From Microbacterium sp. No. 7 (lineage in GTDB: Bacteria > Actinomycetota > Actinomycetes > Actinomycetales > Microbacteriaceae): DNA of 64,000 nt. A program made the translations under genes and the position numbers. This document shows, piece by piece, positions 804 through 17,306 of this stretch. Location: positions 1-64,000 of the forward strand of contig NZ_CP012699.1 in NCBI RefSeq assembly GCF_001314225.1, in the 5' to 3' direction. The notes under the pieces were generated by a model that saw only the letters and a program-made list of their open reading frames with translations, ran no database searches and was not told where the DNA came from. Position 1 is the first letter of the stretch; each line of letters starts with the position of its first letter.

Positions 804-856
804 ATCCCGATGTCGGAACCTATGTCTATATTAGTAGCTGTCAAGTCAACTAATCA
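804..856 (+). promoter_or_regulatory. array promoter/leader copy 1
   Basis: The -10 hexamer TATATT is at 827-832; 17 bases upstream lies a poor -35 (ATCCCG). TGTCGG (811-816) sits 10 bases before the -10, as in the sister copies. GTCAAGTCAACTAATC (840-855) begins 7 bases after the -10, so it should be the first transcribed bases. The gene at 875 follows within 20 bases. Confidence 0.8.
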
Positions 857-874
857 AGAAAGGTAGGGCCTGAC

Positions 875-1525
875 ATGAGCATGTGGACATCGGTGACGAT
901 CACCTTCCCGAACCGGGAGGAGGTCGCCGCGCTGGAGAGCATGGTGGCGCTGTGGAACGCGAGCGTGGACCGCGAGCACGGCCTGGAGATCGGCGAGAGC
1001 CTCCGCGAGGAGCGGGTCTATCTGGGCGGGCGGGCGCTCGGATTCGACTCGGACTTCGGTCTCGACGATGAGGGTGCGCACCTGGCGTACCACGACAAGT
1101 ACGAGACCGAGGGACTCGCCACGTTCGGGGAAGCGTTCACGCACCGCTACCAGACCGCGACGGTGCTGATCGAGACCGAGTGGACCGGCGAGGAGCCGAG
1201 CGTCACCCGCGAGCAATGGCAGGGCGGGCGCATCGTGGCCGAGCGCACGAGCGCGGGGAACCTGGAGCCGGTCTACGAGCCGGGACACTCCCCCGCCGAG
1301 GTGCTCGACCGGCTGCGCGCCGAGCTGCGCGAGCTGGCCGAGCTGCTGGGCCGGATCGAGGTGGGCGAGGACTTCTTCGAGCACTTCACCCGCCGCGAAG
1401 CCGAGGCCCTCGCCACGGTCTACGACACCGCCGACATGGCCGAGATCGCCGGTGAGATCCGTCGCAAGTGCGCCGAGGCCGACCCCGAGGCATGGGCCGA
1501 GGAGGTCGATGCCATGACCTCCTGA
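875..1525 (+). CDS. hypothetical protein, array gene 1
   Basis: An unrecognised 216-residue acidic protein. The first ten residues look like a short beta strand (VTITFP), the middle is rich in aromatic and acidic residues, and the C-terminal third is strongly helical with many Glu, Leu and Arg (possible coiled coil around residues 125-160). No Cys pairs, signal peptide or membrane segment. It is the sole gene between array promoter 1 and the hairpin at 1547-1583, so it is likely monocistronic. The start is fixed by the GAAAGG-type ribosome site just downstream of the promoter leader. Function unknown; its regulation is shared with the other array genes. Confidence 0.7.
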   Translation: MSMWTSVTITFPNREEVAALESMVALWNASVDREHGLEIGESLREERVYLGGRALGFDSDFGLDDEGAHLAYHDKYETEGLATFGEAFTHRYQTATVLIETEWTGEEPSVTREQWQGGRIVAERTSAGNLEPVYEPGHSPAEVLDRLRAELRELAELLGRIEVGEDFFEHFTRREAEALATVYDTADMAEIAGEIRRKCAEADPEAWAEEVDAMTS

Positions 1526-1546
1526 TCCCCGTCACTCCCTAGGCGG

Positions 1547-1583
1547 ATAGGGGCCACCTCCCAATGTCGGAGGTGGCCCCTAT
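1547..1583 (+). terminator. perfect hairpin, overlaps promoter copy 2
   Basis: A perfect 15-base inverted repeat (1547-1561 and 1569-1583) with a 7-base loop. It is placed as a terminator for array gene 1, but its loop and right arm contain the TGTCGG and the start of the -10 box of promoter copy 2. Confidence 0.7.
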
Positions 1584-1610
1584 ATTTGTACACGTCAAGT
1601 CAACTAATCA
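1558..1610 (+). promoter_or_regulatory. array promoter/leader copy 2
   Basis: The -10 TATATT is at 1581-1586, with TGTCGG at 1565-1570 and a weak -35 (CTCCCA) 17 bases upstream. The invariant GTCAAGTCAACTAATC is at 1594-1609. It drives the gene at 1630. The spacer DNA is also the upstream gene's terminator stem. Confidence 0.8.
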
Positions 1611-1629
1611 TCGTTCTAGGGAGGACATC

Positions 1630-2124
1630 ATGACTGACATCACCACCACCGGAACCGACACCGCGGCCGAGCTGGGCGAGATCAGCTTCATCCGCGACAA
1701 CCGGACAGTCGCCATCGGCGAGATCGCCCGGGCCGAGGCCACGGCGCGCGACGCGCTCGCTCGCGTGGCCGAGCTCGAGGCGGAGAACAACCGGCTGCGC
1801 TTCGACCAGATCACGGACGGCGGCGACCCCCGCCTCGTCGACTTCTGGGACAAGGCGGGCCGGATCGCTGACTACGCCGGGTTCTGCGCCGAATACGACC
1901 GCCTCGCGGACGAACTGAACGGGGTGCCCCGCGAGCGCGACTTCGAGGTCCGCCTCGACATCACGATCTCCCTCACCGTCTACAAGACGGTCGCCGCCCG
2001 CGACAGCGACGGCGCGGGCGATCTCGCCTCCGAGGAGATCACCTCCGAGGACGTGATCGAGTCCATCCGCTCGAACGGCTGGAGCGGCCTGGACGTGGAC
2101 GACTGGGACGCCGAGCGCGCCTGA
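1630..2124 (+). CDS. hypothetical coiled-coil protein, array gene 2
   Basis: A 164-residue acidic protein with no recognised family. Residues about 25-60 form a heptad-rich helix (AELEAENNRLR and preceding Ala/Glu/Arg repeats), a probable short coiled coil. The second half alternates strand-like and acidic helical stretches (DITISLTVYKTV, then DVIESIRS) and could be a small alpha/beta domain. Cytosolic by appearance. The ATG at 1630 follows GGGAGG closely; the frame's earlier start codons lie inside the promoter element. Monocistronic between promoter copy 2 and the hairpin at 2138-2168. Confidence 0.7.
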   Translation: MTDITTTGTDTAAELGEISFIRDNRTVAIGEIARAEATARDALARVAELEAENNRLRFDQITDGGDPRLVDFWDKAGRIADYAGFCAEYDRLADELNGVPRERDFEVRLDITISLTVYKTVAARDSDGAGDLASEEITSEDVIESIRSNGWSGLDVDDWDAERA

Positions 2125-2137
2125 TCCACCGCTGACC

Positions 2138-2168
2138 GAGGGGCGGAGCCGACTTGGCTCCGCCCCTC
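2138..2168 (+). terminator. hairpin terminator
   Basis: Perfect 13-base arms (2138-2150, 2156-2168) with a 5-base loop, followed by a pyrimidine run. It separates array gene 2 from promoter copy 3. Confidence 0.8.
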
Positions 2169-2193
2169 TCTCTTGCCCCGACTGTCGGCCTGC

Positions 2194-2246
2194 GCGCCAA
2201 TGTCCGACCCCCCTCCTATATTCGTAGGTGTCAAGTCAACTAACCC
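2194..2246 (+). promoter_or_regulatory. array promoter/leader copy 3
   Basis: TGTCCG at 2201-2206, -10 TATATT at 2217-2222, and the leader beginning GTCAAGTCAACTAA at 2230. The -35 position holds GCGCCA. It precedes the gene at 2264 with AGGAGG in between. Confidence 0.8.
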
Positions 2247-2263
2247 ATATCTAGGAGGACACC

Positions 2264-2824
2264 ATGACTGACGTCACCACTGGAGCGGCCGAGATCCTGG
2301 CCGGGATCGAGGATGCGCTCGGGTCGATCTTCGAGCGCATCGGCTGGGCCGAGGACGAGATCGCGCAGGCGCAGCTGCGCCACCCCGAGGACGCCGACAA
2401 GCTCTATCACTCGTTCGCCCTGCTGAGCGGCGATGAGGCATCCGCCCGGATGGGCGTGGAGATCGTCTACCGCGCCCACGTGCGCGAGATCCTCGAACGG
2501 GTCGCCCACGGGGAGGACACCCGCCCGGGCACCGCCGTGGAGGTGGTGATCGGCCTTCTCGCGGCCGCAGAGCGGGCACCGCTCTCGCACGAGGGCTTCG
2601 GGCTGTGCGCGCGGCTGTGGGCCGCTGCAGGACTCCCCGACCACGACGGCTTCGCCGACAAGCTCGACCACATCGAGGCGCTGCACGCCGCGCGCATCGA
2701 CAGCGACGAGATCGCCGCGCGCCGCGCCTGCCGCAACGACGCCCGGAAGCTCGGGCACATCGAGTGCGACGGCTGGCACCACGGACGCGAGACCTACTGC
2801 GTGTTCACCCCCACCGTCGCCTGA
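2264..2824 (+). CDS. hypothetical protein, array gene 3
   Basis: An unrecognised 186-residue soluble protein, mostly helical in appearance and rich in Ala, Glu and His. There are two Cys in the last third and a His-rich C-terminus (GWHHGRETYCVF). No signal peptide or membrane segment. The ATG has a clear AGGAGG upstream within the conserved leader layout. Flanked by array promoter 3 and a hairpin, so probably expressed alone. Function unknown. Confidence 0.7.
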   Translation: MTDVTTGAAEILAGIEDALGSIFERIGWAEDEIAQAQLRHPEDADKLYHSFALLSGDEASARMGVEIVYRAHVREILERVAHGEDTRPGTAVEVVIGLLAAAERAPLSHEGFGLCARLWAAAGLPDHDGFADKLDHIEALHAARIDSDEIAARRACRNDARKLGHIECDGWHHGRETYCVFTPTVA

Positions 2825-2838
2825 TACCGCGGCGCTCA

Positions 2839-2871
2839 GGAGGGGCGGGGTCGAGCCGGCTCCGCCCCTCC
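2839..2871 (+). terminator. hairpin terminator
   Basis: Ten-base GC arms (2839-2848, 2862-2871) directly after array gene 3. Confidence 0.7.
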
Positions 2872-2893
2872 CGCCTACCCGAACCACTCCGCA

Positions 2894-2946
2894 GCGCCAA
2901 TGTCCGACCTCCCTCCTATATTCGTAGGTGTCAAGTCAACTAATCC
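2894..2946 (+). promoter_or_regulatory. array promoter/leader copy 4
   Basis: Nearly identical to copy 3 from 2896 to 2943: TGTCCG at 2901, -10 TATATT at 2917-2922, GTCAAGTCAACTAATC at 2930-2945, and GCGCCA at the -35 position. Confidence 0.8.
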
Positions 2947-2964
2947 CAAGGAAAGGGGATCGAC

Positions 2965-3462
2965 ATGGGTATGGACGTCTACGGGAAGAACCCGACCGCC
3001 GAGGTCGGGCAGTACTTCCGCAACAGCGTGTGGGGCTGGCATCCGCTCGCCGACTACCTCACCGCTGCGCACCCGGCGCTGACCGCCGGATGCACCTACT
3101 GGCACAGCAACGACGGCGACGGCCTCGACGACGCTGGCGCGCTCGCCCTGGCCGACGCGCTCGACGCAGACCTCGCCAACGGCACCGTTGCGCTGTACGA
3201 GGCGGAGCGCAGCGTCTACCTCGCCGCGCTCCCGATGGAGGAGTGCTGGCTGTGCTCGGGCACCGGGGTGCGCACCGACGAGATCGGCGTGCAGAACGGC
3301 CTCGACAAGCCTCGCGACCCCGTGACCGGTCGTGGCGGGTGCAACGCCTGCAGCGGCACCGGGCAGACCGAGCCGAGCGCGCGGCACTACCCGTTCGAGG
3401 TCGCCAACGTGGCCGAGTTCGCCCGCTTCGCGCGGCACAGCGGGGGCTTCGAGATCTGGTGA
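2965..3462 (+). CDS. hypothetical protein with two DnaJ-like Cys motifs, array gene 4
   Basis: A 165-residue protein. Its N-terminus (MGMDVYGKNP) and the aromatic WGWHPLADYL stretch resemble a family of small plasmid and phage proteins I know only as hypothetical. Around residues 94-99 and 115-120 there are two CxxCxGxG-like motifs (CWLCSGTG and CNACSGTG), the zinc-binding unit of DnaJ-type domains, so one zinc ion may be bound between them. No membrane segment. The start follows a GGAAAGGGGATCG ribosome site after promoter copy 4. A chaperone-like or nucleic-acid role is possible but not shown. Confidence 0.7.
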   Translation: MGMDVYGKNPTAEVGQYFRNSVWGWHPLADYLTAAHPALTAGCTYWHSNDGDGLDDAGALALADALDADLANGTVALYEAERSVYLAALPMEECWLCSGTGVRTDEIGVQNGLDKPRDPVTGRGGCNACSGTGQTEPSARHYPFEVANVAEFARFARHSGGFEIW

Positions 3463-3468
3463 ATCAGG

Positions 3469-3506
3469 CCCGGGGAGCGGGGCGATTCGCCGTCTCGCTC
3501 CCCGGG
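3469..3506 (+). terminator. hairpin terminator abutting promoter copy 5
   Basis: Eleven-base arms (3469-3479, 3496-3506). The -35 box of the next promoter begins two bases after the stem. Confidence 0.7.
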
Positions 3507-3508
3507 GG

Positions 3509-3561
3509 TTGCCAATGTCGGACCCATGCCCTATATTCGTAGTAGTCAAGTCAACTAATCA
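3509..3561 (+). promoter_or_regulatory. array promoter/leader copy 5
   Basis: -35 TTGCCA at 3509-3514, exactly 17 bases, then -10 TATATT at 3532-3537. TGTCGG is at 3516 and GTCAAGTCAACTAATC at 3545-3560. Confidence 0.85.
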
Positions 3562-3579
3562 TCGTCCGAGGAGGACCCC

Positions 3580-4605
3580 ATGACCACCACCGCCCAGCCG
3601 ACCGTCGTCCAGGCCACCAGCGCCGCCGACTTCCTCGGCCTCATCCCCGCCCTCATCGGCTACACCCCGACCCGCTCCATCGTCGTCGTCCCCTTCCGCG
3701 GCAACCACACCGCCGGGGCCGCACGCTTCGACCTCAACGAGGACACCGACCCGCAGGCCCTCGCCAGCACCATCACCGGCATCGTCTGCCGTATCCCCGA
3801 CGCCCGGGCCGTCGCCGTGGTCATCTACACCGACCAGGACGGGCACACCACCCGCCCCATCATCGGCGCCCTCCTCGACCGAGCCACCGAGTGCGGCTTC
3901 GGCATCAAGGACGCCCTCTACGTCGCCCGCGATGGCTGGGGAAGCGCCCTCACCGACGAGCAGCCCCACCCGCTCACCGAGATCAACTCCGCGCTCGCCG
4001 CAGGCCGCGCCACCACCGGCGACCAGCACAGCGGCACCGAGATCCCCGCCCCCGACGAGGACCGCCTCGAGGCCGTGCTCGCAGCGTTCGAGGACTTCGG
4101 CCTCGCCGACGTCGCCGAAACCGACTGGGTCGCACTCGCGGAGGTCGCCGCGACCACCCGGCCCGAGGAGATCGACCCGTTCGACGCGGCCAGCCTGATC
4201 TTCGCCCTCAGCCGCCCCTCCCTCCGCGACATCGCCATCGTGCAGTGGGCCACCGACGAGCACGGCGGCGAGCGGGCCGCCGAGGCGCAGGCCGGATGGG
4301 AGCACGGCGAGGAGTACCCGACCGACCTCGCCAGCATCATGTGGGGCGACGCTCCCCGACCCGACGCGCGCCGCCTGCAGTCCGCTCTCGCCACCGTGCG
4401 CCACCTGACCGCACTCGCCCCCCAGCCCCTCCGCGCGGGCCTGCTGGCGACCATCGCGTGGCTCTCCTGGGCGCTCGGGCACTCCACCCACGCCGACGCC
4501 TACGCCCGCCAGGCGCTCACGATCGAACCCGGCCACGGCCTCTCCGAGATCGTCGCCTCGTTCGTCCAGGCAGGCCACCTCCCTCGCTGGGCCTTCGAGC
4601 GTTGA
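3580..4605 (+). CDS. DUF4192 domain protein, array gene 5
   Basis: A 341-residue protein that fits the actinobacterial DUF4192 family: the N-terminus has the typical FLGLIPALIGYTPTRSIVVVPF segment (family recognition), followed by alternating strands and helices. The C-terminal ~100 residues are helical and TPR-like (LLATIAWLSWALGHSTHADAYARQAL). The biochemical function of the family is not established; members are common on actinobacterial chromosomes, phages and plasmids. Start ATG at 3580 is preceded by GAGGAGG. It lies alone between promoter copy 5 and a strong hairpin. Confidence 0.85.
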   Translation: MTTTAQPTVVQATSAADFLGLIPALIGYTPTRSIVVVPFRGNHTAGAARFDLNEDTDPQALASTITGIVCRIPDARAVAVVIYTDQDGHTTRPIIGALLDRATECGFGIKDALYVARDGWGSALTDEQPHPLTEINSALAAGRATTGDQHSGTEIPAPDEDRLEAVLAAFEDFGLADVAETDWVALAEVAATTRPEEIDPFDAASLIFALSRPSLRDIAIVQWATDEHGGERAAEAQAGWEHGEEYPTDLASIMWGDAPRPDARRLQSALATVRHLTALAPQPLRAGLLATIAWLSWALGHSTHADAYARQALTIEPGHGLSEIVASFVQAGHLPRWAFER

Positions 4606-4610
4606 CCTGT

Positions 4611-4643
4611 ACGGGGGTGGGGCGCTCGCCGCCCCACCCCCGT
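4611..4643 (+). terminator. strong hairpin terminator
   Basis: Fourteen-base perfect arms (4611-4624, 4630-4643) with a 5-base loop, immediately after the DUF4192 gene. Confidence 0.8.
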
Positions 4644-4707
4644 GCAAGTCAGAACACGCCAAGACGCTCAGCTCGACTACGGCGCGACGGCGGCGGCGGC
4701 CGACGAC

Positions 4708-4760
4708 TTGCGCATGTCGGAGGCATGCCCTATATTAGTAGTAGTCAAGTCAGCTAATCG
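4708..4760 (+). promoter_or_regulatory. array promoter/leader copy 6, no evident gene
   Basis: -35 TTGCGC at 4708-4713, a 17-base spacer, -10 TATATT at 4731-4736, TGTCGG at 4715 and GTCAAGTCAGCTAATC at 4744-4759. Over the next ~170 bases I see no convincing start codon with a ribosome site; the leftward gene ends at 4933. A small GC hairpin at 4816-4833 could end a ~90-base transcript. The 4606-4932 interval therefore holds a terminator, this promoter and otherwise nothing recognisable. Confidence 0.75.
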
Positions 4761-4932
4761 ACAGGAGAGGGGGCAGGCCCGCCAACCGCACAGCGGCCAG
4801 GGGAAGCGCACACCGCCTCCCCTCGGAGGGAGGGGCTCCACCCCGGAGCCCGCAGTCGCGCTCGCCGCAGCCGGCTACTCCCACGCCGACACAGAGCCAC
4901 ACTCGATCGCCGTCAGGCGGGTCGTCGACGGC

Positions 4933-5265
4933 TCAGCCCCGCGGCTTCCCTGACCGCGGCCACGGGTATGCGTCCACCCGCTCCCACGCCTCGGCGGCGG
5001 ACATCGACATCCGCATGCGATCCCCCACGTGGGGCGCCTCGGCGTTCGCGCACTGCAGGAACCAAGCCCCTGCGCGCAGCGCATCGGTGAATCCGACATG
5101 CCCCGCGGCCACGGCCTCGGCGATCGCCGCGAGCTTCAACGCCTGCCGAGACGTGATCTGCACAGGAGCGTCGTCATCCGGCCCGGGCGCGTCCACGAGG
5201 GCCTGATACTGCTCGGCGACCTTCCACTCGTACTCCGGATCGGCCGGATCGATCAGCTCACCCAT
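4933..5265 (-). CDS. hypothetical protein
   Basis: A 110-residue acidic soluble protein with no recognised domain. Features: Trp/Tyr-rich N-terminus (DPEYEWKVAEQYQAL), an Ala-rich helix, and a proline-rich basic tail. It is the last gene of a compact leftward run (6788 to 4933) that starts with a kinase-like gene, and is only three bases from its upstream neighbour, so co-transcription is likely. Confidence 0.55.
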   Translation of the reverse strand: MGELIDPADPEYEWKVAEQYQALVDAPGPDDDAPVQITSRQALKLAAIAEAVAAGHVGFTDALRAGAWFLQCANAEAPHVGDRMRMSMSAAEAWERVDAYPWPRSGKPRG

Positions 5266-5268
5266 CGC

Positions 5269-5553
5269 TCAACCCTCCACTATCGGCGCGCTCGCCGCCG
5301 GGGAGGTATCAGCCACCACCACCGGCACCAGGTAGCCGGTGCGGAACGCCCGCCGCGCCTTCCGCGCCCAGGTGACCGGATCATCAGCCAGCGCGAGACG
5401 ACCGCCCGGCGCTGACCGGTCCATGATGGTCACTTCCTCAAGGTCGACCCCGATGTCCCCCGAGACCCGATAAGAGCCATCGTCCTCGACACGCAGCACA
5501 CCGACCGCCTCGTACCCGCTCGCCGCGGGCCGCCGGAACTCGACTTCGATCAT
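5269..5553 (-). CDS. hypothetical small protein
   Basis: A 94-residue protein starting MIEVEFRRP. Predicted beta-rich first half (EAVGVLRVEDDGSYRVSGD) and a basic second half. It lies between the kinase-like gene and the 4933-5265 gene in the same direction. The pattern of strands resembles small proteins that accompany phosphotransferase-like enzymes, but I cannot name the family. Confidence 0.55.
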   Translation of the reverse strand: MIEVEFRRPAASGYEAVGVLRVEDDGSYRVSGDIGVDLEEVTIMDRSAPGGRLALADDPVTWARKARRAFRTGYLVPVVVADTSPAASAPIVEG

Positions 5554-5583
5554 CGGGATGTCACCTCACTCGTGCCCTGCATT

Positions 5584-6618
5584 TTAGAACCAGCCCCCCG
5601 GCAGCACCCGGCCCGAAGCCAGCATGATCTCCGCCCGCGCGCGCAGCGCGTCCGCGCGATCCCCCTGGAGCAACGGCGCCACACCCAACAGATCCGGCGA
5701 CCCCACGAGCCGATGCAACGCGCTGCGCTCGCCGTCCGTGAGCTGCGGGGCGTGGAACACTCGGCGCTGCTGGAGCAGCTGCAGGTTGTACCCGTCGCCG
5801 GTGCGGCCGAACGCGAACCCGTGGTCGATCAGGTAGAGCCGGTCCTGGTCGACGAGGAGGTTCCCGCCGTGACGGTCCTGCTGACCGATGAGGGCGTCGA
5901 AGAACCCGGCCGCGAGGATCCGCTCCTCGGGCACGACCGGCAGCGGGTTCGTCACGTTGCCGGGGACGCCCATCGACAACGAGCCGAGCCGGCCGTCGAT
6001 CTCGCGCAGCACGCAGGGCGGCACGAGCTCGTCCCACGGCCCGCCGAGCTCGCGAGCCAGCGCCCACGCTGCGACCTCATGGACCGGCTGCAGCGGCCCG
6101 TCGTGCCCGTAGTCCTCGCTCGCTTCCTCATCCAGCCCGTCGAAGGGTTTGTGGTAGGCGTCTGCGCCGTCCGTCAGCCGCACCCGGATGGTCTCGTTCA
6201 CCCCCGATTCCTCCGCCCACTCGAGGCCGGCCACCTCGGCATCCAGGAGGGCACGCTCGCGGGGATGCCTGCCCTGCTGCGCGGCGGTGGCGATGATCGA
6301 CGGGAGAACATCCGGCCCCACCCAGAAGATGTCTGACACCTCCCGGGGGGACATTGCTCGCGCCGCCGATGCCGGCGGGGGATCTTCGAGCAGCGATGCC
6401 GGCGCGCCCGCCTCGCGCGCCCACCGCTTCGCTACGGACGGCGGCGCCTTCGCGAGGAGCGAGATCGCCTCGTCCGGCACACCCTCTGCTCGCGCCCACG
6501 AGACGATCGCCGAGCGGGCGGCGCGATTCTGCCGACGTCGGGCGTTGTGGGTGGCGCGCTCAGACTCGCTGCCGCAGTTCGGGCAGCGGCGGCCGCCCTC
6601 CTCTGCCGACCGACACAT
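5584..6618 (-). CDS. kinase-like protein with N-terminal zinc ribbon
   Basis: A 344-residue protein. Residues about 12-15 (CPNC) with a nearby Cys form a half zinc ribbon. The C-terminal half carries the hallmarks of an ATP-grasping kinase of the PI3/4-kinase or HipA type: GQQDRHGGNLLV around residue 246 (catalytic D and N in DxxxxN) and LYLIDHGFAF around 262 (metal-binding D, here IDHG in place of DFG). Actinobacterial proteins of this class are poorly characterised. HipA-like toxins are one alternative, but no HipB-like partner is adjacent. The ATG at 6618 overlaps the stop of the small upstream gene (ATGA), indicating translational coupling. Confidence 0.65.
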   Translation of the reverse strand: MCRSAEEGGRRCPNCGSESERATHNARRRQNRAARSAIVSWARAEGVPDEAISLLAKAPPSVAKRWAREAGAPASLLEDPPPASAARAMSPREVSDIFWVGPDVLPSIIATAAQQGRHPRERALLDAEVAGLEWAEESGVNETIRVRLTDGADAYHKPFDGLDEEASEDYGHDGPLQPVHEVAAWALARELGGPWDELVPPCVLREIDGRLGSLSMGVPGNVTNPLPVVPEERILAAGFFDALIGQQDRHGGNLLVDQDRLYLIDHGFAFGRTGDGYNLQLLQQRRVFHAPQLTDGERSALHRLVGSPDLLGVAPLLQGDRADALRARAEIMLASGRVLPGGWF

Positions 6619-6788
6619 CAAGAGGCTCGGGGGTCGTCGTCTCGATCGACTCTGATGGCGATGAGCTGATGCCCTGCGGGCACGCGCTGCTCGAGCTGCT
6701 CGAGGGCGGCCGGATAGGTCGCAGCGTCGACCTCGATCCTCGTGGGCTCCGCCTCCGGCTCGCTGCGCACCGTCCCGATCAACCTCAT
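6618..6788 (-). CDS. hypothetical small protein
   Basis: A 56-residue protein starting MRLIGTVRSEPEAEP, with strand-helix-strand character. I chose the ATG at 6788; an upstream in-frame ATG at 6824 would add 12 residues and has a purine run directly before it. It heads the leftward run and overlaps the kinase-like gene by ATGA. It is divergent from array promoter 7. Function unknown. Confidence 0.45.
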   Translation of the reverse strand: MRLIGTVRSEPEAEPTRIEVDAATYPAALEQLEQRVPAGHQLIAIRVDRDDDPRAS

Positions 6789-6847
6789 GCCCAGATGGTA
6801 TGTCCCCCGCTGCCCAGTCCGCATCCTCTCGCTCGGAGACGGGCATC

Positions 6848-6900
6848 TTGACTAGCTCATATGCGTAACCTATATTTGTAACCGTCAAGTCAGCTAATTT
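6848..6900 (+). promoter_or_regulatory. array promoter/leader copy 7 with CTCATATGCGTAAC
   Basis: Canonical -35 TTGACT (6848-6853), 17-base spacer, -10 TATATT (6871-6876) and leader GTCAAGTCAGCTAATT (6884). In place of TGTCGG the spacer holds CTCATATGCGTAAC (6856-6869), a motif also present at the parA promoter, at 45.77 kb and, reversed, at 48.24 kb. The leftward kinase-like run starts on the other side. Confidence 0.85.
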
Positions 6901-6915
6901 GGATTGGAGGACGTC

Positions 6916-7608
6916 ATGGCCGCGCACGAGACACCCGGCACAGACGGCGCCATCCTGCTGCACCCCGAGCATGAGCACTGGCCGGCAGAGTTCGCCGATC
7001 TCGGCTCGATCGCCCCACGCCGCATCTTTGCCCTCGGCGCTCTGGATCTTCTCCAGTCCCAGGCGCGCACGGCACTCATCGGTGGCCGTACAGCGACGGT
7101 CGCCGGTCGGGCCGCCGGCGCGGCGCTGGCCGCCGGGCTCGCCGCTCGTGGTGAGGCCCTCATCACTCCCGCCGAGACGGGAACCGATCTCGCCGTGGTC
7201 GACGCCGCCCGCCGCGCCGGCGGGCGCGTCATCGCGATCACCGACCGTCCACCGGCGGAGGCCGGCCACATCGCCCGTGCCGCGCAGCGGGGGATCCTCG
7301 AGCGCGGCGGGCTGATCCTCTGGGAGGCCTCGTCGCCACGGGGCGGCCGCACCTCCCACCGCAGCGCACGCCTCATCGCCGCGCTCGCGGCTCGCCTCGT
7401 CCTCGTCGAGATCGGTGCGCGATCGGCGGGGATGACCGCGGCCGCGATCGCCGGCGGGCTGTCCCGGGCCGTGGCCGCCACGCCCACTGATCAGTCCCGC
7501 CCGGGTCGCGGCACCCGGCAGCTGCTCGCCGCAGATCTCGCGACCCTCGTCCATACCCCCGACGAGCTCGACGCCTTGTCCGATCCGCGCACGCTCGCGC
7601 ACCTATGA
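6916..7608 (+). CDS. DprA-like Rossmann protein
   Basis: A 230-residue protein with the layout of a shortened DprA/Smf or LOG-type Rossmann domain: an ALIGGRTAT loop near residue 55, followed by ITPAETGTDLAVVDAARRAGGRVIAIT and a late GMTAAAIAGGLSRAVAATP segment comparable with DprA's SG..TA..A...GR.V.AVPG region. DprA proteins load RecA on incoming single-stranded DNA; this short member may be divergent in function. ATG at 6916 is five bases after GGAGG. Directly downstream of promoter copy 7; followed by three genes in the same direction with little space, so it may head an operon (6916-9060). Confidence 0.7.
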   Translation: MAAHETPGTDGAILLHPEHEHWPAEFADLGSIAPRRIFALGALDLLQSQARTALIGGRTATVAGRAAGAALAAGLAARGEALITPAETGTDLAVVDAARRAGGRVIAITDRPPAEAGHIARAAQRGILERGGLILWEASSPRGGRTSHRSARLIAALAARLVLVEIGARSAGMTAAAIAGGLSRAVAATPTDQSRPGRGTRQLLAADLATLVHTPDELDALSDPRTLAHL

Positions 7609-7634
7609 CCTGCAGGGACCAGAGAGGAACCACG

Positions 7635-8093: not shown

Positions 8094-8095
8094 CT

Positions 8096-9060: not shown

Positions 9061-9064
9061 GGGG

Positions 9065-9117: not shown

Positions 9118-9134
9118 TCATCCAGGAGGATCCG

Positions 9135-10091: not shown

Positions 10092-10095
10092 CCCC

Positions 10096-10121
10096 ACGGG
10101 GGCGGCGCCAGCCGCCCCCGT
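10096..10121 (+). terminator. hairpin terminator or attenuator
   Basis: Eleven-base perfect arms (10096-10106, 10111-10121) with a 4-base loop. The ribosome site of the next gene starts three bases after it, so read-through may supply that gene. Confidence 0.75.
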
Positions 10122-10138
10122 CTAGGAGGTGAACAACC

Positions 10139-11167: not shown

Positions 11168-11394
11168 GCCTGGTCACCCACCTCTCGCCGCGACGTCGAC
11201 GGGTCGTCCTGGATCTCGGTGACCCCGCCGAGGCGGCATCCGTCTGCGCGGCGCTGCGCGAGCTCGGGCTGACCGGACACATCCACCTCGAGGTCGTCGA
11301 CGAGATCCTCGGCGGCGGCAGCGAGGAGATCGTCGACGAGATCCGCGATCGCCTCCACCTCCGCGCACACCTCGAGGAGGTCCCCGATGAATGA
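11164..11394 (+). CDS. hypothetical small protein
   Basis: A 76-residue acidic protein (VCAALRELGLTGHIHLEVVDEIL and a Glu-rich tail). It overlaps the upstream gene by ATGA and the downstream gene by eight bases, so it belongs to one operon (10139-11977). No family recognised. Confidence 0.55.
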   Translation: MSLVTHLSPRRRRVVLDLGDPAEAASVCAALRELGLTGHIHLEVVDEILGGGSEEIVDEIRDRLHLRAHLEEVPDE

Positions 11395-11977
11395 CGAGCG
11401 CGTCGTGCTCCTAGTGGAGTTCACCTCCGGCGAGGTCGTGGCCGTGCCCTTCACGAGCCGTGACGCTGCCGACCGCTGGGAGCAGAGTCACGACTACGAG
11501 GTCATCGGCCGGCCACGGATCGCCACGGCGAGATCCCTGAGCGTCGGCGCCCGGAAAGCGAGGGAAGTCATGACCGCCGACGAGCCGCTGTTCGAACTCG
11601 CCGACGTCGGCCTCGAACTCGTGCCCACCGAGGCCATGAGACGGGGCGAGCAGTTCGTCCACCAATGCGCCTGGTGCGGGGCCGTTGTCGTCTGGCACCG
11701 GCGGAAGACCACCGACTCCCTCGGTCTGTGCCCCAACTGCGGCTCGGACGCCGGCGGGAACCCAGCAGAGTCCTCCACCTGGTGGCGCCAACGCCTCCCC
11801 CTCGCCGGAATAGCACCTCTGGGCCTCGCAGCGTGGAACCGGCTCGTCGACGATCTGATCGCGCAACTGCACACCAGCGAGATCACGGAATGGGACGAAG
11901 CGCGCGTTGCGGCATGGCTGCGCGCATGCGCGGCCGCGCCGCACGCGTCAGTCCCCGGCGACGGGGGCGACCGCTAA
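11387..11977 (+). CDS. hypothetical zinc-ribbon protein
   Basis: A 196-residue protein. The N-terminal ~60 residues look like a small alpha/beta domain; a classic zinc ribbon follows at residues about 94-120 (CAWCGAV ... LCPNCGSDAG). The C-terminal part is helical with several Trp. Nucleic-acid binding is likely from the zinc ribbon, but the family is unknown to me. Last gene of the operon; no hairpin terminator is obvious after it. Confidence 0.55.
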   Translation: MNDERVVLLVEFTSGEVVAVPFTSRDAADRWEQSHDYEVIGRPRIATARSLSVGARKAREVMTADEPLFELADVGLELVPTEAMRRGEQFVHQCAWCGAVVVWHRRKTTDSLGLCPNCGSDAGGNPAESSTWWRQRLPLAGIAPLGLAAWNRLVDDLIAQLHTSEITEWDEARVAAWLRACAAAPHASVPGDGGDR

Positions 11978-12027
11978 GATCTGAGACGGCACCCGGTCAG
12001 TGGAGCGCTGGACATCCGGCCCTCCTG

Positions 12028-12043
12028 GATTAGTTGACTTGAC
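12028..12043 (-). promoter_or_regulatory. array leader copy 9, reversed and lacking a -10 box
   Basis: The exact 16-base leader GTCAAGTCAACTAATC on the minus strand, followed by AGGAGG and an ATG (minus, at 12014) that opens only 12 codons. The DNA 7 bases upstream does not resemble TATATT (GTGGAT), so this seems to be a relic or a binding site without a promoter. The 11978-12176 interval holds nothing else recognisable. Confidence 0.6.
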
Positions 12044-12176
12044 ACTTGACGATCCACGGCCGGGTGCCCTCTCTGTCCGCGGCCCATTGCAGACAGACAC
12101 GCCCGGCATAAGCGCCCGATAGCGTGATGACGAGTGAGCGTCCGGGACTGACGCTCCAGGCTGAGGAGCTGCCCCG

Positions 12177-14243
12177 ATGACCGACGAACGGCGACGCATA
12201 GACGTGCTGCTGGATCAGGTAGCCGACCAGGCCCTGCGCGACCGCATCGCCGCCGAGATCACCCAGATCACCGGCAAGAAGAAGTGGGGCTTGAACTTCG
12301 AGGAGCACCTCCCCGAAGGCATCCGCATCCCGAAGGCCCGCGTGCGACGCGGCGTCCGCGCCCAGCTACGCGACGGTTCTGACCCGCGCTACTGGGAGGT
12401 GAAGAGGGTCGTCGGCGGAGTCGCGCAACTGCACCACGACGGCGAAACGCGCGAAGTGCCGACAGGCGACCTCGTGGTCGCGCGTGTCTTCGACGAGCCC
12501 GTCTACCCAGGCTTCACGCCGCTCGGGTCGATAGAGCGCGGCGGCGACAAGCCGCACCACCTCGTCATCGAGGGTGAGAACTTCCACGCGCTCGAGACGC
12601 TCCGATACACGCACGAGGGCAAGGTCGATCTGATCTACATCGACCCGCCCTACAACACCGGCGCCGGCGACTGGATCTACAACGACCGCTACGTCGGCGA
12701 CGCGGACGCATACCGCCATTCCAAGTGGCTGAGCTTCATGCAGAAGCGCCTCGAGCTCGCGCGACACCTCCTCGCTCCGACCGGCGTCATCATCGTCGCC
12801 ATCGACGACAACGAGCACCACCGCCTTCGGGTGCTCCTGGACGAAGTATTCGGTGAGCAGAACTTCCTCGGCAACGTTGTGTGGCAGGGCGGCCGTAAGA
12901 ACAACGTGAAGTTCATCGCCGACACGCACGACTACATGCTCTTTTTCGCGAAGGACAAGGCGCTTCTCTCTACCGGTGATGCCTGGAAGGAGTCACGTCC
13001 CGGGTACGACGAACTACTGCAGGCTGGGCTCGATGCGTGGGAGGAGTCCGGTCATGACGCTGCAGCTGCCACCGCGTTGCTCCGAAACTGGCGCAGAGCC
13101 CTTCCGGCTGACCACCCGGCCCGTGCCGAGCGCGGCCTCAACATGTACGACCAAGTTGATGGCCATCCGAAGCACGCCGGCAAGGTCTACAGCACGGGCG
13201 ATCTGCGAAACCCCTTTCCCCGCCCGAACCTTCAGTACGACATTCCGCACCCGGTCGATGGCAAGCCCGTGAAGATGCATCCGAACGGGTGGATCTGGTC
13301 GCGCGAGCGGATGATGCAAGCGATTGAAGACGGCATAGTCGTCTTTGCCCCTGACAGCACCGGTTCCGCGCGCCAGAAGCGCTTCCTGGAAGCCGGCAGC
13401 CAGCAGTCTGTTGCCCCCGTGTTCACTCAGGACCGATCGAAGGCTACGAGGTCACTAGCTGCGATCCTCGGAACCAACGACTTCCCCTTCCCGAAAGACG
13501 TCGACGTCATCGCGCGGTGGGTGAACATCGCGACAGGCGGCCAGCCCAGTGCCGTAGTTCTCGACTTCTTCGCAGGCACCGGGACGACTGCGCACGCCGT
13601 TCTGCAGCTCAACGCGACCGATGGCGGCCACAGGCAGTCGATTGTCGTGACAAATAACGAGGTAGGGCAGAAGGCGGCGACGGCCCTCACCAAAGCTGGC
13701 CATGCAGCGGGAGATCCCGAGTGGGAGGCGGAAGGTGTTTTCGAGAAGGTCACGCTGCCGCGAATCCAGACGGTTGTCACTGGCACACGGCGCGACGGCT
13801 CGAAGCTCACTGACCCGGTGATGGACGCGGACGGCAAGAAGATCGCGTCGGGCATTCCGGGTGCGATTGGGTACGACGAGAACGTGACCTTTTTGAAGCT
13901 CGACTACCTCGACCGCGATGACATCGCTGCCGACGATGCATTCCGGCAGATCGCGACGCTGCTGTGGGTGAAGGCCGGCGGGCGCGGCCCGGTGATCGCT
14001 GAGCGTGCCGAGGCATTCGCGGTGCCCGAGGGCGCGAACTATGCGGTGCTGTTCAGCGTCGCCGAGTGGGCACCGTTCGTCGAGCTCGTGAACAGCCGGC
14101 CGGAGATCGAGACCGTCTACGTCGTCTCGGACTCGGAGACCACGTACGGCCCGATCGTGCGAGCGATGCGCCCCGAGGTGTCGTCGTTCCGGCTGTACGA
14201 GAACTATCTCAGCAACTTCGAGATCAACGTGGGAGGGCGCTGA
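12177..14243 (+). CDS. type III-like DNA methyltransferase (Mod), beta class
   Basis: A 688-residue site-specific DNA methyltransferase. Catalytic motif IV is DPPYNTG near residue 156, and the AdoMet-binding motif I (DFFAGTGTTAHAV) comes later, near 462; this order marks the beta class used by type III Mod subunits. The region between them would be the target-recognition domain. The N-terminal 120 residues are a family-typical extension (KKKWGLNFEEHLPEG). It should methylate adenine in an asymmetric site. Its stop overlaps the ATG of the next gene by one base, so the pair is translationally coupled. Promoter not obvious; an array-leader relic lies upstream in the opposite direction. Confidence 0.9.
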   Translation: MTDERRRIDVLLDQVADQALRDRIAAEITQITGKKKWGLNFEEHLPEGIRIPKARVRRGVRAQLRDGSDPRYWEVKRVVGGVAQLHHDGETREVPTGDLVVARVFDEPVYPGFTPLGSIERGGDKPHHLVIEGENFHALETLRYTHEGKVDLIYIDPPYNTGAGDWIYNDRYVGDADAYRHSKWLSFMQKRLELARHLLAPTGVIIVAIDDNEHHRLRVLLDEVFGEQNFLGNVVWQGGRKNNVKFIADTHDYMLFFAKDKALLSTGDAWKESRPGYDELLQAGLDAWEESGHDAAAATALLRNWRRALPADHPARAERGLNMYDQVDGHPKHAGKVYSTGDLRNPFPRPNLQYDIPHPVDGKPVKMHPNGWIWSRERMMQAIEDGIVVFAPDSTGSARQKRFLEAGSQQSVAPVFTQDRSKATRSLAAILGTNDFPFPKDVDVIARWVNIATGGQPSAVVLDFFAGTGTTAHAVLQLNATDGGHRQSIVVTNNEVGQKAATALTKAGHAAGDPEWEAEGVFEKVTLPRIQTVVTGTRRDGSKLTDPVMDADGKKIASGIPGAIGYDENVTFLKLDYLDRDDIAADDAFRQIATLLWVKAGGRGPVIAERAEAFAVPEGANYAVLFSVAEWAPFVELVNSRPEIETVYVVSDSETTYGPIVRAMRPEVSSFRLYENYLSNFEINVGGR

Positions 14244-16738
14244 TGGAGTACCAGCTCCGGGGCTACCAGGCGCAGGCCGCCGGCGAGATCGTCAGCGGTA
14301 TCGAAGTGGGCGCCGGGCTCGCGTCGAAGGGTAAGTCGTCGGCTGTGAGCCTCGCGGCACCGACCGGTGCCGGCAAGACGATCATCGCCGCGGCCGCCAT
14401 CGAGGATCTGATTTTCGGTGACACGGTGATACCCGGCGAGGAACCGGTCATCCTGTGGGTATCGCTCTACCCGAAGCTGAACGAGCAGACTCGTGACAAG
14501 TTCGAACGCGCGAGCGAGAAGCTGCGTCCCCGGTTGCACATCATCGACTCCTCGAAGCAGTACGACGTGGAAACACTGACACCGGGCCGGGTGTACTTTC
14601 TGAACACCCAGAAGCTCGGCAGCAGCGCGACCAACTACACCTCAAAGGATGGGCGCACCTTCACCCTGTGGGAGACCCTGAGCAACACGGTCGACCGGTT
14701 CGGCAGCCGCGTGGTCATGTTCGTCGACGAAGCGCACCAGGGCACTGGCGGCGGATCCAGTGCGAGCGGCGACACGATCCTCGGGCAGCTGACCCGGGGC
14801 GGCGGCAAGATGAGCAATCCGGTGCCGATCGTCGTCGGTGTCTCCGCCACTCCGGAGCGCTTCGAAAAGAACATCGCAGCGCATCGGGCGTACCGTGAGG
14901 CGGTCGACGTAGAGGTTGCGGCGGTACGCGAGTCCGGGCTCGTGAAGGACCAGCTCGTCCTCGCGCATCCGACCGAGGAGATCGCATCAGACTCGACCCT
15001 CGTTCGGGAGGCGGCGATCCAGCGCGCCCGCCAGGAGCAGCGATGGGCGTCCTGGGCGGACCAGAATCCGGGCGATGCGCTCGTGGAGCCGGTGCTTCTC
15101 GTACAGCTGACCGCAAAACCGAATGAGACCATCGTGGCCGGCTTCATCCAGGACATCCTGCAAGCCGACTCAACCCTCACAATCGACAACTTCGCCAACG
15201 CGCTCGAGGGCGGATCCGCGGTCACCTTCGGAAGCCACGACGTGCGCTACGTCGACCCACCCCGGATCCAGGAGACCGGCGGAGTGAAGGTGGTGCTGTT
15301 CAAGGACGCGCTCACGACCGGGTGGGATTGCCCCCGCGCCGAGGTGCTGGTCTCCCTCCGCGGCACCAGCGACGACGTGACCATCACCCAGCTCGTCGGC
15401 CGCATCGTCCGCACCCCACTCGCGAAGCGGGTCGCCGGCGACGACAACCTGAACGCCGTGTGGACCTATCTTCCGCACTTCGATCAGGAGTCCGTCGAGC
15501 GGGTCGCGATGCGCCTGCGCACCGGCGACACCGAGGTCGCAACGCCCGTCGTGGTGAACCCGGTGCCAGTCACCCGCAACGCCGCCGTGCCGGATGCTGT
15601 ATGGACCGCGTTCAGGGACTTCCCCAGCTGGTCGCGGCCCTCACGGACCGCGCGGCCGGCGACATCCCGCGTATTGACCGCGGCGATGGTGCTCGCGAAG
15701 ACCGGCATCCTCCAAGACGCACCGCGGATCGCTCAAGACCGGGCAGTCGACACCCTGCTGCAGCACATCAAAGCCAACCAGCAGTTCGTCGACGACAAGG
15801 TGACCGCCTACGAGGAGGTCGACTATCAGACCCTCGCGATCGACTGGCTCACCGGCGAGCAGACTGGCACGCAGGCCGAAAGCGCGAAGATTGCCACCCG
15901 TAACGTCGCCGACCTGTTCAACATCGCCGCCCGCCGCCTCCCGGACAACTCAGCGAAGTGGCTCTGGGACCGCCTGTACATGGCCCAGCCCGAAGGCGAC
16001 CGGGACGGAGACGCCGCACGCCTCATCGTCGCAGCTGTCGCACAGCAGCCCGACACAGTGAAAGCTGTCGAGGACGCCAGCCAGACGCTGCTGGATCAAT
16101 GGCGGAAGCAGCACGCCGCCGCCCTGTCGCAGATCGGCGGGACCGCAGAGACCGACTTCTACGCCGCGTTCGCCGAGTCGAAGCGTTCCGTCGAGATCCC
16201 CGTCGAGGCACCCGCGGACACGGTAGTGAAGGACGCCGAGCACCGCTGGCCGCGCCACCTGCTCGCGGACACTGACGGACAATTCCCGCACGACGGCAAC
16301 ACGTGGGAACGCGCCGTGCTCGAGACGGAGACGAAGCGCCACACCACCCTCGCCTGGTATCGGAACCCCTCGAGCGGCACCCAGTCCATCGCGATCGCGT
16401 ACGGCCCGCTCGGGGAGCAGCGCCTGCTGCATCCCGACTTCCTGGTCTTCACCGAACGCGACGGCGAAGTGCTCATAGACATCATCGACCCACACGATCC
16501 GTCCCGCAGCGACACAATCCCGAAGTGGGGCGCTCTCGCCGAGTACACGAAGCAGAACGCCACCCGCCTCGGCCGCGTTCTCGCGATCATCGACGAAAAG
16601 AAGGGCTCCGACGTCCTCGTCCAGCTGAACCTCGCGAGCCCGACAGCGCAGGACGCGATGATCTCCCTGGCGAAGACCGGCGGCACCGAGGCCGACGTGC
16701 GCGCCCTGTTTGACCAGCACGGCGGCCGCTATCAGTAG
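14243..16738 (+). CDS. type III-like restriction subunit (Res), DEAD/DEAH helicase
   Basis: An 831-residue superfamily 2 helicase: Walker A APTGAGKT near residue 38, DEAHQG near 162, VGVSATPERF near 200, and a C-lobe with TTGWDCPRAEVLVSLRGT and QLVGRIVRTP around 360-395. The C-terminal ~250 residues occupy the place of the endonuclease domain; around HPDFLVFTERDGEVLIDIIDPHDP the usual (D/E)xK lysine is not evident, so cleavage activity is uncertain. The start chosen is the ATG coupled to the methylase stop; in-frame codons further upstream lie inside mod. Alternative: a helicase partner in another defence system with this Mod type. Confidence 0.85.
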   Translation: MEYQLRGYQAQAAGEIVSGIEVGAGLASKGKSSAVSLAAPTGAGKTIIAAAAIEDLIFGDTVIPGEEPVILWVSLYPKLNEQTRDKFERASEKLRPRLHIIDSSKQYDVETLTPGRVYFLNTQKLGSSATNYTSKDGRTFTLWETLSNTVDRFGSRVVMFVDEAHQGTGGGSSASGDTILGQLTRGGGKMSNPVPIVVGVSATPERFEKNIAAHRAYREAVDVEVAAVRESGLVKDQLVLAHPTEEIASDSTLVREAAIQRARQEQRWASWADQNPGDALVEPVLLVQLTAKPNETIVAGFIQDILQADSTLTIDNFANALEGGSAVTFGSHDVRYVDPPRIQETGGVKVVLFKDALTTGWDCPRAEVLVSLRGTSDDVTITQLVGRIVRTPLAKRVAGDDNLNAVWTYLPHFDQESVERVAMRLRTGDTEVATPVVVNPVPVTRNAAVPDAVWTAFRDFPSWSRPSRTARPATSRVLTAAMVLAKTGILQDAPRIAQDRAVDTLLQHIKANQQFVDDKVTAYEEVDYQTLAIDWLTGEQTGTQAESAKIATRNVADLFNIAARRLPDNSAKWLWDRLYMAQPEGDRDGDAARLIVAAVAQQPDTVKAVEDASQTLLDQWRKQHAAALSQIGGTAETDFYAAFAESKRSVEIPVEAPADTVVKDAEHRWPRHLLADTDGQFPHDGNTWERAVLETETKRHTTLAWYRNPSSGTQSIAIAYGPLGEQRLLHPDFLVFTERDGEVLIDIIDPHDPSRSDTIPKWGALAEYTKQNATRLGRVLAIIDEKKGSDVLVQLNLASPTAQDAMISLAKTGGTEADVRALFDQHGGRYQ

Positions 16739-16876
16739 CAGCCCTCGGGATGACACCTAGGAACAGAAGCAGACTGGTGCGCCGCCGACGTTGATGGCCA
16801 CCTAGAGCGGACACTCGACCTGGCTCGTCTGTGCAACCGTGTGGTTGTCGGCACCCTTGCGTATGGTCACGGGGTG

Positions 16877-17143
16877 GTGCAGCACTGGACTCCGATGTCG
16901 CAGCTGCAGAGATCGCCAGAGCCGGGCATCTGGTACGTGTTCGACCAGAGCAAGCGCATCGCGATCATCCGGCATGTCGAAGTCAAAGGGCGACGTCTGC
17001 TGCGTTCGGTGACCTGGTCGCAGGATCCTGAGCAGCGGCAGCTCATCGGGTACTTTCCGGAAGACGCGATGCGCCTCGCCGTGGAGTGCACCTGGTCTGA
17101 GTACGTGCGGTACACCGGCCCACCCACGAGCAACCGGCGGTAA
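16877..17143 (+). CDS. hypothetical protein
   Basis: About 89 residues, strand-rich, with several Trp and Tyr (GIWYVFDQSKRIAIIRHVEVKGRRLLRSVTW). The start is uncertain: GTG codons at 16841, 16874 and 16877 are possible and none has a good ribosome site; a leaderless start is conceivable. It stands alone between the restriction gene and promoter copy 10. No family recognised. Confidence 0.45.
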   Translation: MQHWTPMSQLQRSPEPGIWYVFDQSKRIAIIRHVEVKGRRLLRSVTWSQDPEQRQLIGYFPEDAMRLAVECTWSEYVRYTGPPTSNRR

Positions 17144-17256
17144 GAACCAGCCCGCTCCCTCATGCCCGGGCGCCGCTCTGCTGCGCACTGCGGCCGGCTG
17201 AAGGCGTCCACTGGCCTACCGATCCGCACGCTTCGGTCGACGACGAGGTTGACCAG

Positions 17257-17306
17257 TTGACTATCTGCTATGTGTGCCCTATATTCGATGCTGTCAAGTC
17301 AGCTAA
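17257..17306 (+). promoter_or_regulatory. array promoter/leader copy 10
   Basis: -35 TTGACT (17257-17262), 17-base spacer, -10 TATATT (17280-17285), leader GTCAAGTCAGCTAA from 17293. The spacer carries CTATCTGCTATGTG, a weak relative of the CTATCTCATATG motif, instead of TGTCGG. Confidence 0.85.

Follow-up and report, generated by a model that had tools for sequence, protein, structure and literature searches.

Tagged promoters and an opposite-strand copy on contig C3

The window, that is, the whole stretch of 64,000 nucleotides (nt) analyzed here, covers bases 1–64000 of contig C3 (NZ_CP012699.1, 93,808 bp) of Microbacterium sp. No. 7, whose 4.83 Mb genome consists of three contigs. Because the window contains genes for ParA-like, TcpC-like, AAA_10 ATPase, FtsK-like and M23 peptidase proteins, contig C3 is probably a conjugative plasmid. 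It carries nine near-identical promoter-leader modules, whose shared leader block is called the tag below, and a tenth exact copy of this block lies on the minus strand (12030–12044), without a −10 box, inside a terminator-like hairpin. This tenth copy is the most informative part of the array.

The original prediction described nine modules in which TATATT is followed by seven bases and then GTCAAGTCARCTAA, and all nine are present, every one on the plus strand, with TATATT at 827, 1581, 2217, 2917, 3532, 4731, 6871, 9088 and 17280. The full form is TATATT, seven bases and GTCAAGTCA(A/G)CTAA; position 10 is the variable position of this tag (tag 1) and is A or G in most copies, both of which can pair with U. 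The 15-mer TGTCAAGTCARCTAA, searched with up to three mismatches, gave 11 hits in the window compared with a mean of 0.62 in shuffled sequences, and none of 100 shuffles reached 11. In the whole genome, all 10 exact hits of the 14-mer were located on contig C3. No sign of a transposon end was seen, and all nine sense copies stand directly behind a −10 box. The −35 element expected at a constant 17 bp was confirmed for part of the array: the hexamer at this distance is TTGACT in two copies and TTGCCA or TTGCGC in three, and in the other four it does not resemble a −35 box. The 17-bp spacer starts with ATGTC in seven of the nine modules (1–6 and 8, e.g., 810–816). In the relatives L056 and L057, many copies have TTGACA-N17-TATATT, and a plainer promoter often reads CCAACCGGGTTGACA-N17-TATATT-N7-GTCAAGTCAACTAA; judged from this layout, the shared block starts at about the predicted transcription start.

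Read on the plus strand, the tenth copy (12030–12044) is antisense to the shared 5′ leader plus Shine-Dalgarno sequence and ATG. The fold of this strand, which is the direction of the tagged genes, has an energy of −50.9 kcal/mol (z −5.0), and the equivalent element of genomes G183 and G087 folds at z −6.8. The predicted antisense small RNA (11988–12078, +) has an outer GC stem (11988–11998/12058–12068), two sub-hairpins and a pyrimidine-rich tail. Its 5′ sub-hairpin holds the complement of the Shine-Dalgarno sequence and ATG, and the loop and 5′ arm of its 3′ sub-hairpin (12030–12044 and flanks) are antisense to the shared leader. A −10-like TAAGAT (11975–11980, +) lies 7 nt ahead of the hairpin. 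The same element occurs in G176, G240, G183 and G087, where TTAGTTGACTTGACACTTGA is invariant; G183 and G087 show paired changes in the stem. Comparison of window 1–19000 with Rfam gave nothing at the hairpin, and one match below the gathering score elsewhere (proV, 2983–3121). The tenth copy was also considered as a minus-strand leader with a short open reading frame; this was rejected because there is no −10 box and, by eye, C3 and G183 would encode different peptides.

The flanks of the hairpin were compared across plasmids. In all 17 hairpins compared, a TAnnnT box ends 6–11 nt before the stem; among 533 GC-rich control hairpins from five plasmids, of which some are antisense hairpins that were not set apart, 6 have such a box. 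At least four T residues within the 13-nt tail were found in 16 of the 17 antisense hairpins and in 71 of the 533 controls. A GmrSD_C/HNH gene close to tagged promoters precedes the hairpin on the same strand in C3, C2, G183, G178:C2 and G128, a placement that would fit feedback.

The modules head the following genes, all on the plus strand. Module 1 (827–853), composed of the −10 box TATATT, seven bases and the leader GTCAAGTCAACTAA, precedes gene 875–1525 (216 amino acids (aa), no Pfam or NCBIfam match); module 2 (1581–1607) precedes gene 1630–2124 (164 aa), and module 3 (2217–2243) precedes gene 2264–2824 (186 aa), whose orthologues are 77% identical on contig C2 (other tag) and 81% on G183 (same tag). 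Gene 2965–3462 (165 aa), behind module 4 (2917–2943), has orthologues under other tags on C2, G128 and the Curtobacterium plasmid pC1b, and gene 3580–4605, behind module 5 (3532–3558), encodes a DUF4192 protein. Module 6 (4731–4757) has G at position 10 of its leader; no gene of at least 50 aa was found behind this complete module (window 4731–4932) by the gene-finding script. Module 6 is also present in G176 and G240. Module 7 (6871–6897) precedes gene 6916–7608 (DprA/Smf-like), and module 8 (9088–9114) is followed by genes 9135–10091 (DprA-like), 10139–11167, 11164–11394 and 11387–11977 and then by the antisense hairpin. Module 9 (17280–17306) precedes gene 17324–17836 and further genes, among them that of a Mom-family protein (19028–19627; Pfam E 6e-21; homologues on C2 and G128). 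The statement that the downstream genes are unrelated needs one amendment, namely that the genes at 6916 and 9135 both belong to the DprA/Smf family and are 33% identical over 219 aa. A 15-bp hairpin is located at 1547–1583, and its 3′ arm reaches into the −10 box of module 2, which gives an overlap of promoter and terminator-like stem.

Plasmid F carries promoters that become active in single-stranded DNA, and the modules might likewise fold into active promoters during single-strand entry. Module 2 (1525–1607) does fold into a 15-bp hairpin (z −5.5), and part of the gene set resembles establishment genes. Against this, the other eight modules fold no better than shuffled sequences on the plus strand, the only strand folded (z −0.9 to +1.3), and the modules carry ordinary −10 boxes and, in relatives, −35 boxes. 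We believe that this explanation has a very slight chance of being correct.

Matching tags and hairpins on other plasmids

Contig C2 (135,111 bp), a second plasmid-like contig of the same genome, was reached through a homologue search with gene 2965–3462. It has its own tag, GTCAGATACACAACA, in 13 promoters of the form TAnnnT-N7-GTCAGATACACAAC, and one antisense hairpin, in which a single opposite-strand copy of the tag without a −10 box lies within GGGCACCCGTCCG...CGGACGGGTGCCC, followed by TTTT. The first genes behind six of the C3 modules have counterparts behind the other tag on C2 with identities of 35–77%. Orthologous genes therefore bear different tags on different plasmids, and the tag is largely uniform within each plasmid. 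This bears on the idea that no dedicated regulator exists and that the modules are promoters or cassette ends of recent duplication, for which their near-identity and the many single-gene units they head could speak. Orthologues with different, largely plasmid-uniform tags, each tag accompanied by an antisense hairpin, speak against it, and given the matched change of tag and antisense we regard this idea as disfavored and extremely improbable.

The exact tag 1 module was found in 7 of 366 genomes of the genus Microbacterium, the own genome counted. G128 has the tag GTCAGRGATAC and a weaker antisense hairpin. Plasmid pC1b has the tag TGTCAGATYGAACC in three promoters, and its 14-nt antisense, which sits in an inverted repeat, is exact to one promoter and one letter off the others. 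Homologues of gene 17324–17836 were found in 20 of 361 genomes, and the leaders near them added the tags GTCACATTCACY, GTCAGATTCACTA, GTCAGGTYACA and GTCAGAGATAC. Each of eight fetched stretches (G115, G174, G330, G234, G226, G015, G120 and G144) contained one hairpin copy. The first-fetched stretches of G023, G170, G156 and G239 contained no hairpin; a covariance model, R1, then located one elsewhere in each genome and two in G156. Thus, in all 20 genomes with a homologue of this gene, a tag is accompanied by a hairpin that bears its antisense, with one G-U pair in the case of G015. Tag-bearing genes are partly on other contigs than the hairpin in G239, G194 and G156, and G156 has two tags and two hairpins. 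In total, at least seven tags were found in 21 Microbacterium genomes and pC1b, each with a hairpin on a like scaffold carrying its antisense. An opposite-strand copy without a −10 box in a GC-rich hairpin was present once in each of 15 plasmid sets (15/15), the hairpin being part of the criterion.

The order of the anti-leader and anti-Shine-Dalgarno segments is opposite in pC1b, G128 and G144, which argues against simple descent of the element from one inverted 5′ region.

Cluster A mycobacteriophage stoperators share a TGTCAAG core in all sites and are dispersed and mostly one-directional. The original prediction linked the array to them, and tag 1 indeed has these seven bases, the dispersal and the mostly single direction in common with them. 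This link was given up: only one of the seven tag types contains TGTCAAG, the sense copies stand directly behind −10 boxes, and plasmids with related gene sets and the same promoter layout have leaders without this core (GTCAGATACACAACA, GTCACATTCACY, GTCAGATCGAACC, GTCAGGTTCACAACA and others), each with its own antisense hairpin.

Tests of pairing and of the stem

In a 13 × 13 comparison, the mean longest Watson–Crick run was 7.5–15.2 nt with own leaders and at most 8.0 nt (mean 5.6) with foreign tag types, and 13 of 13 RNAs scored higher with their own leaders than with any foreign type. When G-U pairs were allowed, own runs were 8.3–16.5 nt (G015 15.0) and the foreign maximum was 10.0 nt. 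The mean duplex energies with own leaders were −45.6 (C3), −42.4 (G183), −42.6 (C2), −30.2 (G128) and −30.6 (pC1b) kcal/mol, and those with shuffled leaders were −26.2, −23.3, −25.7, −26.4 and −21.2 kcal/mol, respectively; the values of C3, G183 and C2 are far outside the range of shuffled leaders. For each of these five RNAs, the strongest duplex is with leaders of the tag it belongs to, the G183 RNA pairing equally well with the C3 leaders, which have the same tag. The expected number of chance copies of the exact antisense word per strand is 2e-6 (C3), 1e-6 (G183), 1e-4 (C2), 3e-4 (pC1b) and 0.04 (G128). As in small regulatory RNAs, the complementarity reaches several mRNAs near the start codon, with 9 leaders in the window, 14 on G183 and 13 on C2.

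Hairpins with 8-bp arms were also surveyed, and their loops were scored for antisense to the own tag. Tags 1, 2 and 4 have loops with 14–15 nt of antisense; 9–10 nt is reached by chance with other short tags, as well as with the own tag of G128 (9 nt), and the long GC-rich leader of the Xylanimonas plasmid pXCEL01 reaches 12 nt. A second 15-nt entry on C3 (3008, −) and a 13-nt entry on G087 are, in our view, normal modules that were read from the opposite strand and are flanked by arms arising by chance.

The extent of the antisense copy is informative in itself. Its identity to the leaders is 0.69–1.00 over +1 to +13 and 0.17–0.58 upstream, and since identity starts at +1 and drops upstream, it is the transcript that is mirrored and not the promoter. 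A different view is that the +1 block is a DNA operator for a plasmid-encoded repressor, with the hairpin copy as an extra site or decoy. Such a repressor has a precedent in Reg of p576 (PMC8708921). Inverted repeats centered on GTCAS at +1 occur in tag types 2, 3b and 5 (L098, L341, L349, L350, L352), for example TGTTGTGTAT-GTCAG-ATACACAACA on C2; palindromic arms around +1 in several tag types pair on average 4–9.5 of 10 positions (8.5 on C2, 9.5 in G234), and tag types 1, 2, 3, 4 and 7 have the ATGTC box in the spacer that separates −35 from −10 (window; L098, L356, L365). However, the opposite-strand copy keeps only the transcribed half without the upstream arm, and an operator needs neither a hairpin with compensatory stem changes nor anti-Shine-Dalgarno segments nor the T-rich tail that most hairpins have. 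In addition, tags 4, 6 and 7 pair only 4–5.5 of 10 arm positions, and gene 10139–11167, the sole regulator candidate compared, had no hit on C2 or pC1b, no systematic regulator search having been made. We consider an operator acting in place of an RNA quite improbable.

The 17 hairpins share the outer stem, which was tested for covariation in an alignment of 13 hairpins with 14 pairs and 500 shuffles. It was paired in 97% of cells and in 30–46% when slid. Changes on both sides were seen in 7 of the 14 pairs (1 of 500 shuffles was as high), with 17 cells of two-sided change compared with 5.5 in shuffles, and the covariation score of 0.257 (0.127 in shuffles) was reached by none of 500. Within the outer stem, the part that was tested, structure is thus kept by compensatory change, as expected of a small RNA.

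The scaffold was also searched without reference to the tag. When 29 sequence sets (1,191,303 bases) were scanned for the outer-stem arms, defined by a consensus of known hairpins, together with a tail rich in T, 17 distinct places emerged, namely 15 known antisense hairpins, one new (G194) and one false (C2 89485). In G194, the hairpin contains the complement of GTCAGGTTCACAACA, which was then an unseen tag; a search with GTCAGGTTCACAACA found promoters bearing it in both G194 and G156, the majority having a −10-like box and Shine-Dalgarno-ATG, and a second hairpin with its antisense in G156. Model R1 was built from 13 hairpins and run on 12 whole genomes, with the best 150 of about 1,000–2,900 candidates scored per genome. 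Ten of the 12 genomes matched at E ≤ 0.1, including a weak match in G247 (0.046), and G178 had a weak second match (0.095); no match was found among the best 150 candidates of G241 and G406. The own genome gave two matches at this threshold, one each on C2 and C3. The matches of G023, G170, G353, G239, G194 and G156 all carry the antisense of a tag of their genome, those of G239, G194 and G156 (two) being more divergent than those of G023, G170 and G353.

A proposed RNA-controlled plasmid regulon and its relation to known systems

From these sequence comparisons, we are fairly confident that a trans-acting antisense RNA, paired to 5′ mRNA tags, represses the translation of a plasmid regulon. 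The suggestion of a common regulator or a common 5′ mRNA tag was right in outline, and the evidence favors an RNA tag with a cognate antisense RNA. Tags, hairpin scaffold, complementarity, the matched change of tag and antisense between plasmids and the compensatory stem changes can be read from the DNA itself; transcription, pairing in the cell, repression and its timing we infer. The shared 14–15 nt at +1 of every module would form the 5′ tag of the mRNA, and the element at 11988–12078 would be transcribed into a short RNA whose inner hairpin is the complement of the tag and whose flanking segment is the complement of the Shine-Dalgarno sequence and start codon. The targets of this RNA in trans would be the tagged mRNAs that its own plasmid encodes, first contact being made by its loop (..UGACA..) with the outermost 5′ bases of the mRNA (UGUCA..); the duplex would then extend along the tag, and the segment complementary to the Shine-Dalgarno sequence and ATG would close the ribosome site and block translation. 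In any host where the plasmid is established, tagged mRNAs would thereby be repressed. A plasmid that has just entered a cell arrives as DNA without the antisense RNA, so its tagged genes would be expressed briefly until the RNA accumulates; because tag and antisense diversify together, each plasmid could regulate its own genes beside another such plasmid.

The antisense RNA might instead act in trans on the tags through transcription (early termination) or mRNA decay. The closest RNA repressors of mobile elements, such as the phage P4 CI RNA with its early termination, act on transcription, and pairing would begin at the extreme 5′ end, where elongation or decay could be affected. Yet the leaders are short, with 25–38 nt from the tag G to the start codon in 39 of 44, which leaves little room for a terminator, and the RNAs of tags 1–5, which were read closely, also bear anti-Shine-Dalgarno segments. 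We think this route unlikely and prefer the block of translation.

Several points weigh against such an RNA or narrow its evidence. Transcription starts, the existence of the RNA and the direction of its effect are all predicted, and no −35 box was recognizable for the RNA in the sequence upstream of the hairpins that were read. One promoter each of G183 and G087 has C at tag position 10, which would not pair. For most tags the hairpin was found through a tag search, so complementarity is there by construction. Own Watson–Crick runs come near the foreign range in G015 (7.5), G128 (8.0) and G120 (9.0), the best foreign type being 7.0 in each, and with G-U pairs the foreign runs of up to 10.0 exceed the 8.3 of G128. 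The duplex of the G128 RNA is not better than its best shuffle (−30.6 kcal/mol) and that of pC1b equals its best shuffle; the leaders of both bind the C2 RNA more strongly (−34.8 and −32.1 kcal/mol, respectively) than their own. One continuous duplex over both segments is impossible where their order is opposite, that is, in pC1b, G128 and G144. Of the three tag 1 genomes outside the 20 with a homologue of gene 17324–17836, G087 has the hairpin, G241 has tags without one and G247 has only the weak match. Several of the 17 hairpins are near-identical (C3/G176/G240, G183/G087, C2/G178 and G330/G234/G226), most of the new R1 matches (G023, G170, G353) are near-copies of model members, and in the covariation test the measure of further pair types did not exceed shuffles (139 of 500). 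The scan arms were derived from known hairpins, and in its 29 sets the scan missed G128 and pC1b besides giving the false place. The palindromic arms and the ATGTC box, both loose patterns, mean that a DNA-binding repressor may act too, as a second layer.

If the proposal is true, one small RNA and a 14-nt tag stand in for the protein repressor of a whole plasmid regulon, and actinobacteria would have an RNA answer to the problem of silencing establishment genes in the donor while expressing them briefly in the recipient. At least seven naturally matched pairs of tag and antisense on one scaffold make the pairing rules testable and may offer ready-made regulators with little cross-talk. More tentatively, and with slightly more doubt than confidence, we suggest a barcoded, immunity-like RNA system in which the establishment genes of each conjugative plasmid lineage bear a tag of their own, matched by a single cognate antisense RNA built on the conserved scaffold. 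The entry genes of a resident plasmid would be silent, those of an incoming plasmid expressed if its barcode is unknown and silenced at once if it is the same, leading to RNA-based exclusion of like plasmids and independence of unlike ones (e.g., C2 and C3 in one genome; G156). Plasmids that share a tag should then silence each other's entry genes, which is a testable form of exclusion.

The regulated genes resemble establishment genes in part. The gene set includes DprA-like, DUF4192, GmrSD_C/HNH and Mom-family genes, among which the DprA-like genes and the Mom-family gene, further down the unit of module 9, are candidates for anti-restriction or entry functions; no informative match was obtained for the majority of targets. 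A type III restriction-modification pair (12177–16738) is located between the hairpin and module 9; no homologue of it was found at E 1e-5 on C2, G183:C8, G128:C4, pC1b and the G178:C2 stretch. A class I aminoacyl-tRNA synthetase (W/Y family) is present in two copies, one of them shortened (22269–23309 and 26663–27415, −), with a 100% match on C2, and two neighboring genes at 20066–22260 (+) are likewise 100% matched there.

Related genes also occur under leaders of another kind. The Xylanimonas plasmid pXCEL01 (L076/L077) and Gordonia NZ_CP128198 (L083) have related genes under their own shared leaders, and the related Cellulosimicrobium plasmid pCPRO01 (L075) has its own repeated leaders. 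The leader of pXCEL01, e.g., GACCAACCACCACGGCGGCCCGACCACCCGCC, follows a TAnCGT box and is partly self-complementary, and the genes behind it include ArdC and an N6-methylase. The scaffold scan and model R1 gave no antisense hairpin on pXCEL01 and NZ_CP128198, and none was found in 49,242 of the 152,586 bases of pCPRO01; another mechanism may therefore act there. Loops on pXCEL01 are antisense to its own GC-rich leader over up to 10 nt, and on other plasmids the same word reaches up to 12 nt. A homologue of gene 2965–3462 is present in G406, with no such leader seen and no hairpin found. Homologues of gene 10139–11167 occur on the Microbacterium plasmids L084 and L085, whose 30.6 kb stretches gave no R1 match; the L085 plasmid has a hairpin elsewhere (on G170:C2, which shares its length of 177,760). 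The module pattern had no match in the viral contigs searched, and the bare 14-mer and 15-mer, found in at least 120 and in 78 viral stretches, respectively, were taken for chance in view of their length. Among the 12 stretches with the module pattern in the sequence search, L015:2934–2960, in a Flavobacteriaceae record of 31% GC, is probably a chance match, with no gene start in the 45 nt behind it.

The phage P4 CI RNA, the P1/P7 c4 RNA and the plasmid RNAs FinP, CopA and RNAI are structured antisense RNAs that control their own element by loop-initiated pairing and act on one or few leaders. In contrast, up to 14 promoters per contig share one trans-recognized tag here, and the pairs diversify like barcodes. 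GcvB, Qrr and OmrA/B are single RNAs that pair with many mRNAs near the start codon through limited, imperfect shared complementarity, whereas the targets here share one near-identical tag at +1. Literature searches, confined to an open-license library, brought up no account of an antisense system of this kind. The leading-region anti-defense genes likewise form entry or anti-defense sets of conjugative plasmids under several like promoters, and 'antisense' and 'sRNA' do not occur in that text (PMC11541004). Single-stranded promoters of plasmid F are named in section 4.1 of PMC8708921; the modules differ in that eight of nine form no hairpin promoter on the plus strand and the proposed regulator is a small RNA. 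In the same article (PMC8708921), where 'antisense' occurs once, in the references, and 'small RNA' is absent, Bacillus plasmids of the pLS20 family are described to have like regulatory sequences (EGeRS1, EGeRS2) ahead of several establishment operons on one conjugative plasmid. Related plasmids of this family use different sequences, and expression is transient since the DNA and not the repressor is transferred; the repressor of EGeRS2, Reg_p576, is a ribbon-helix-helix protein that binds DNA at dual TTATCCC motifs, and the mechanism of EGeRS1 is given as unknown (PMC8708921). As in these establishment regulons, the same regulatory sequence stands ahead of several operons of one plasmid on C3, so the layout is alike (PMC8708921), and the regulator proposed here would be an antisense RNA acting on a transcribed tag.

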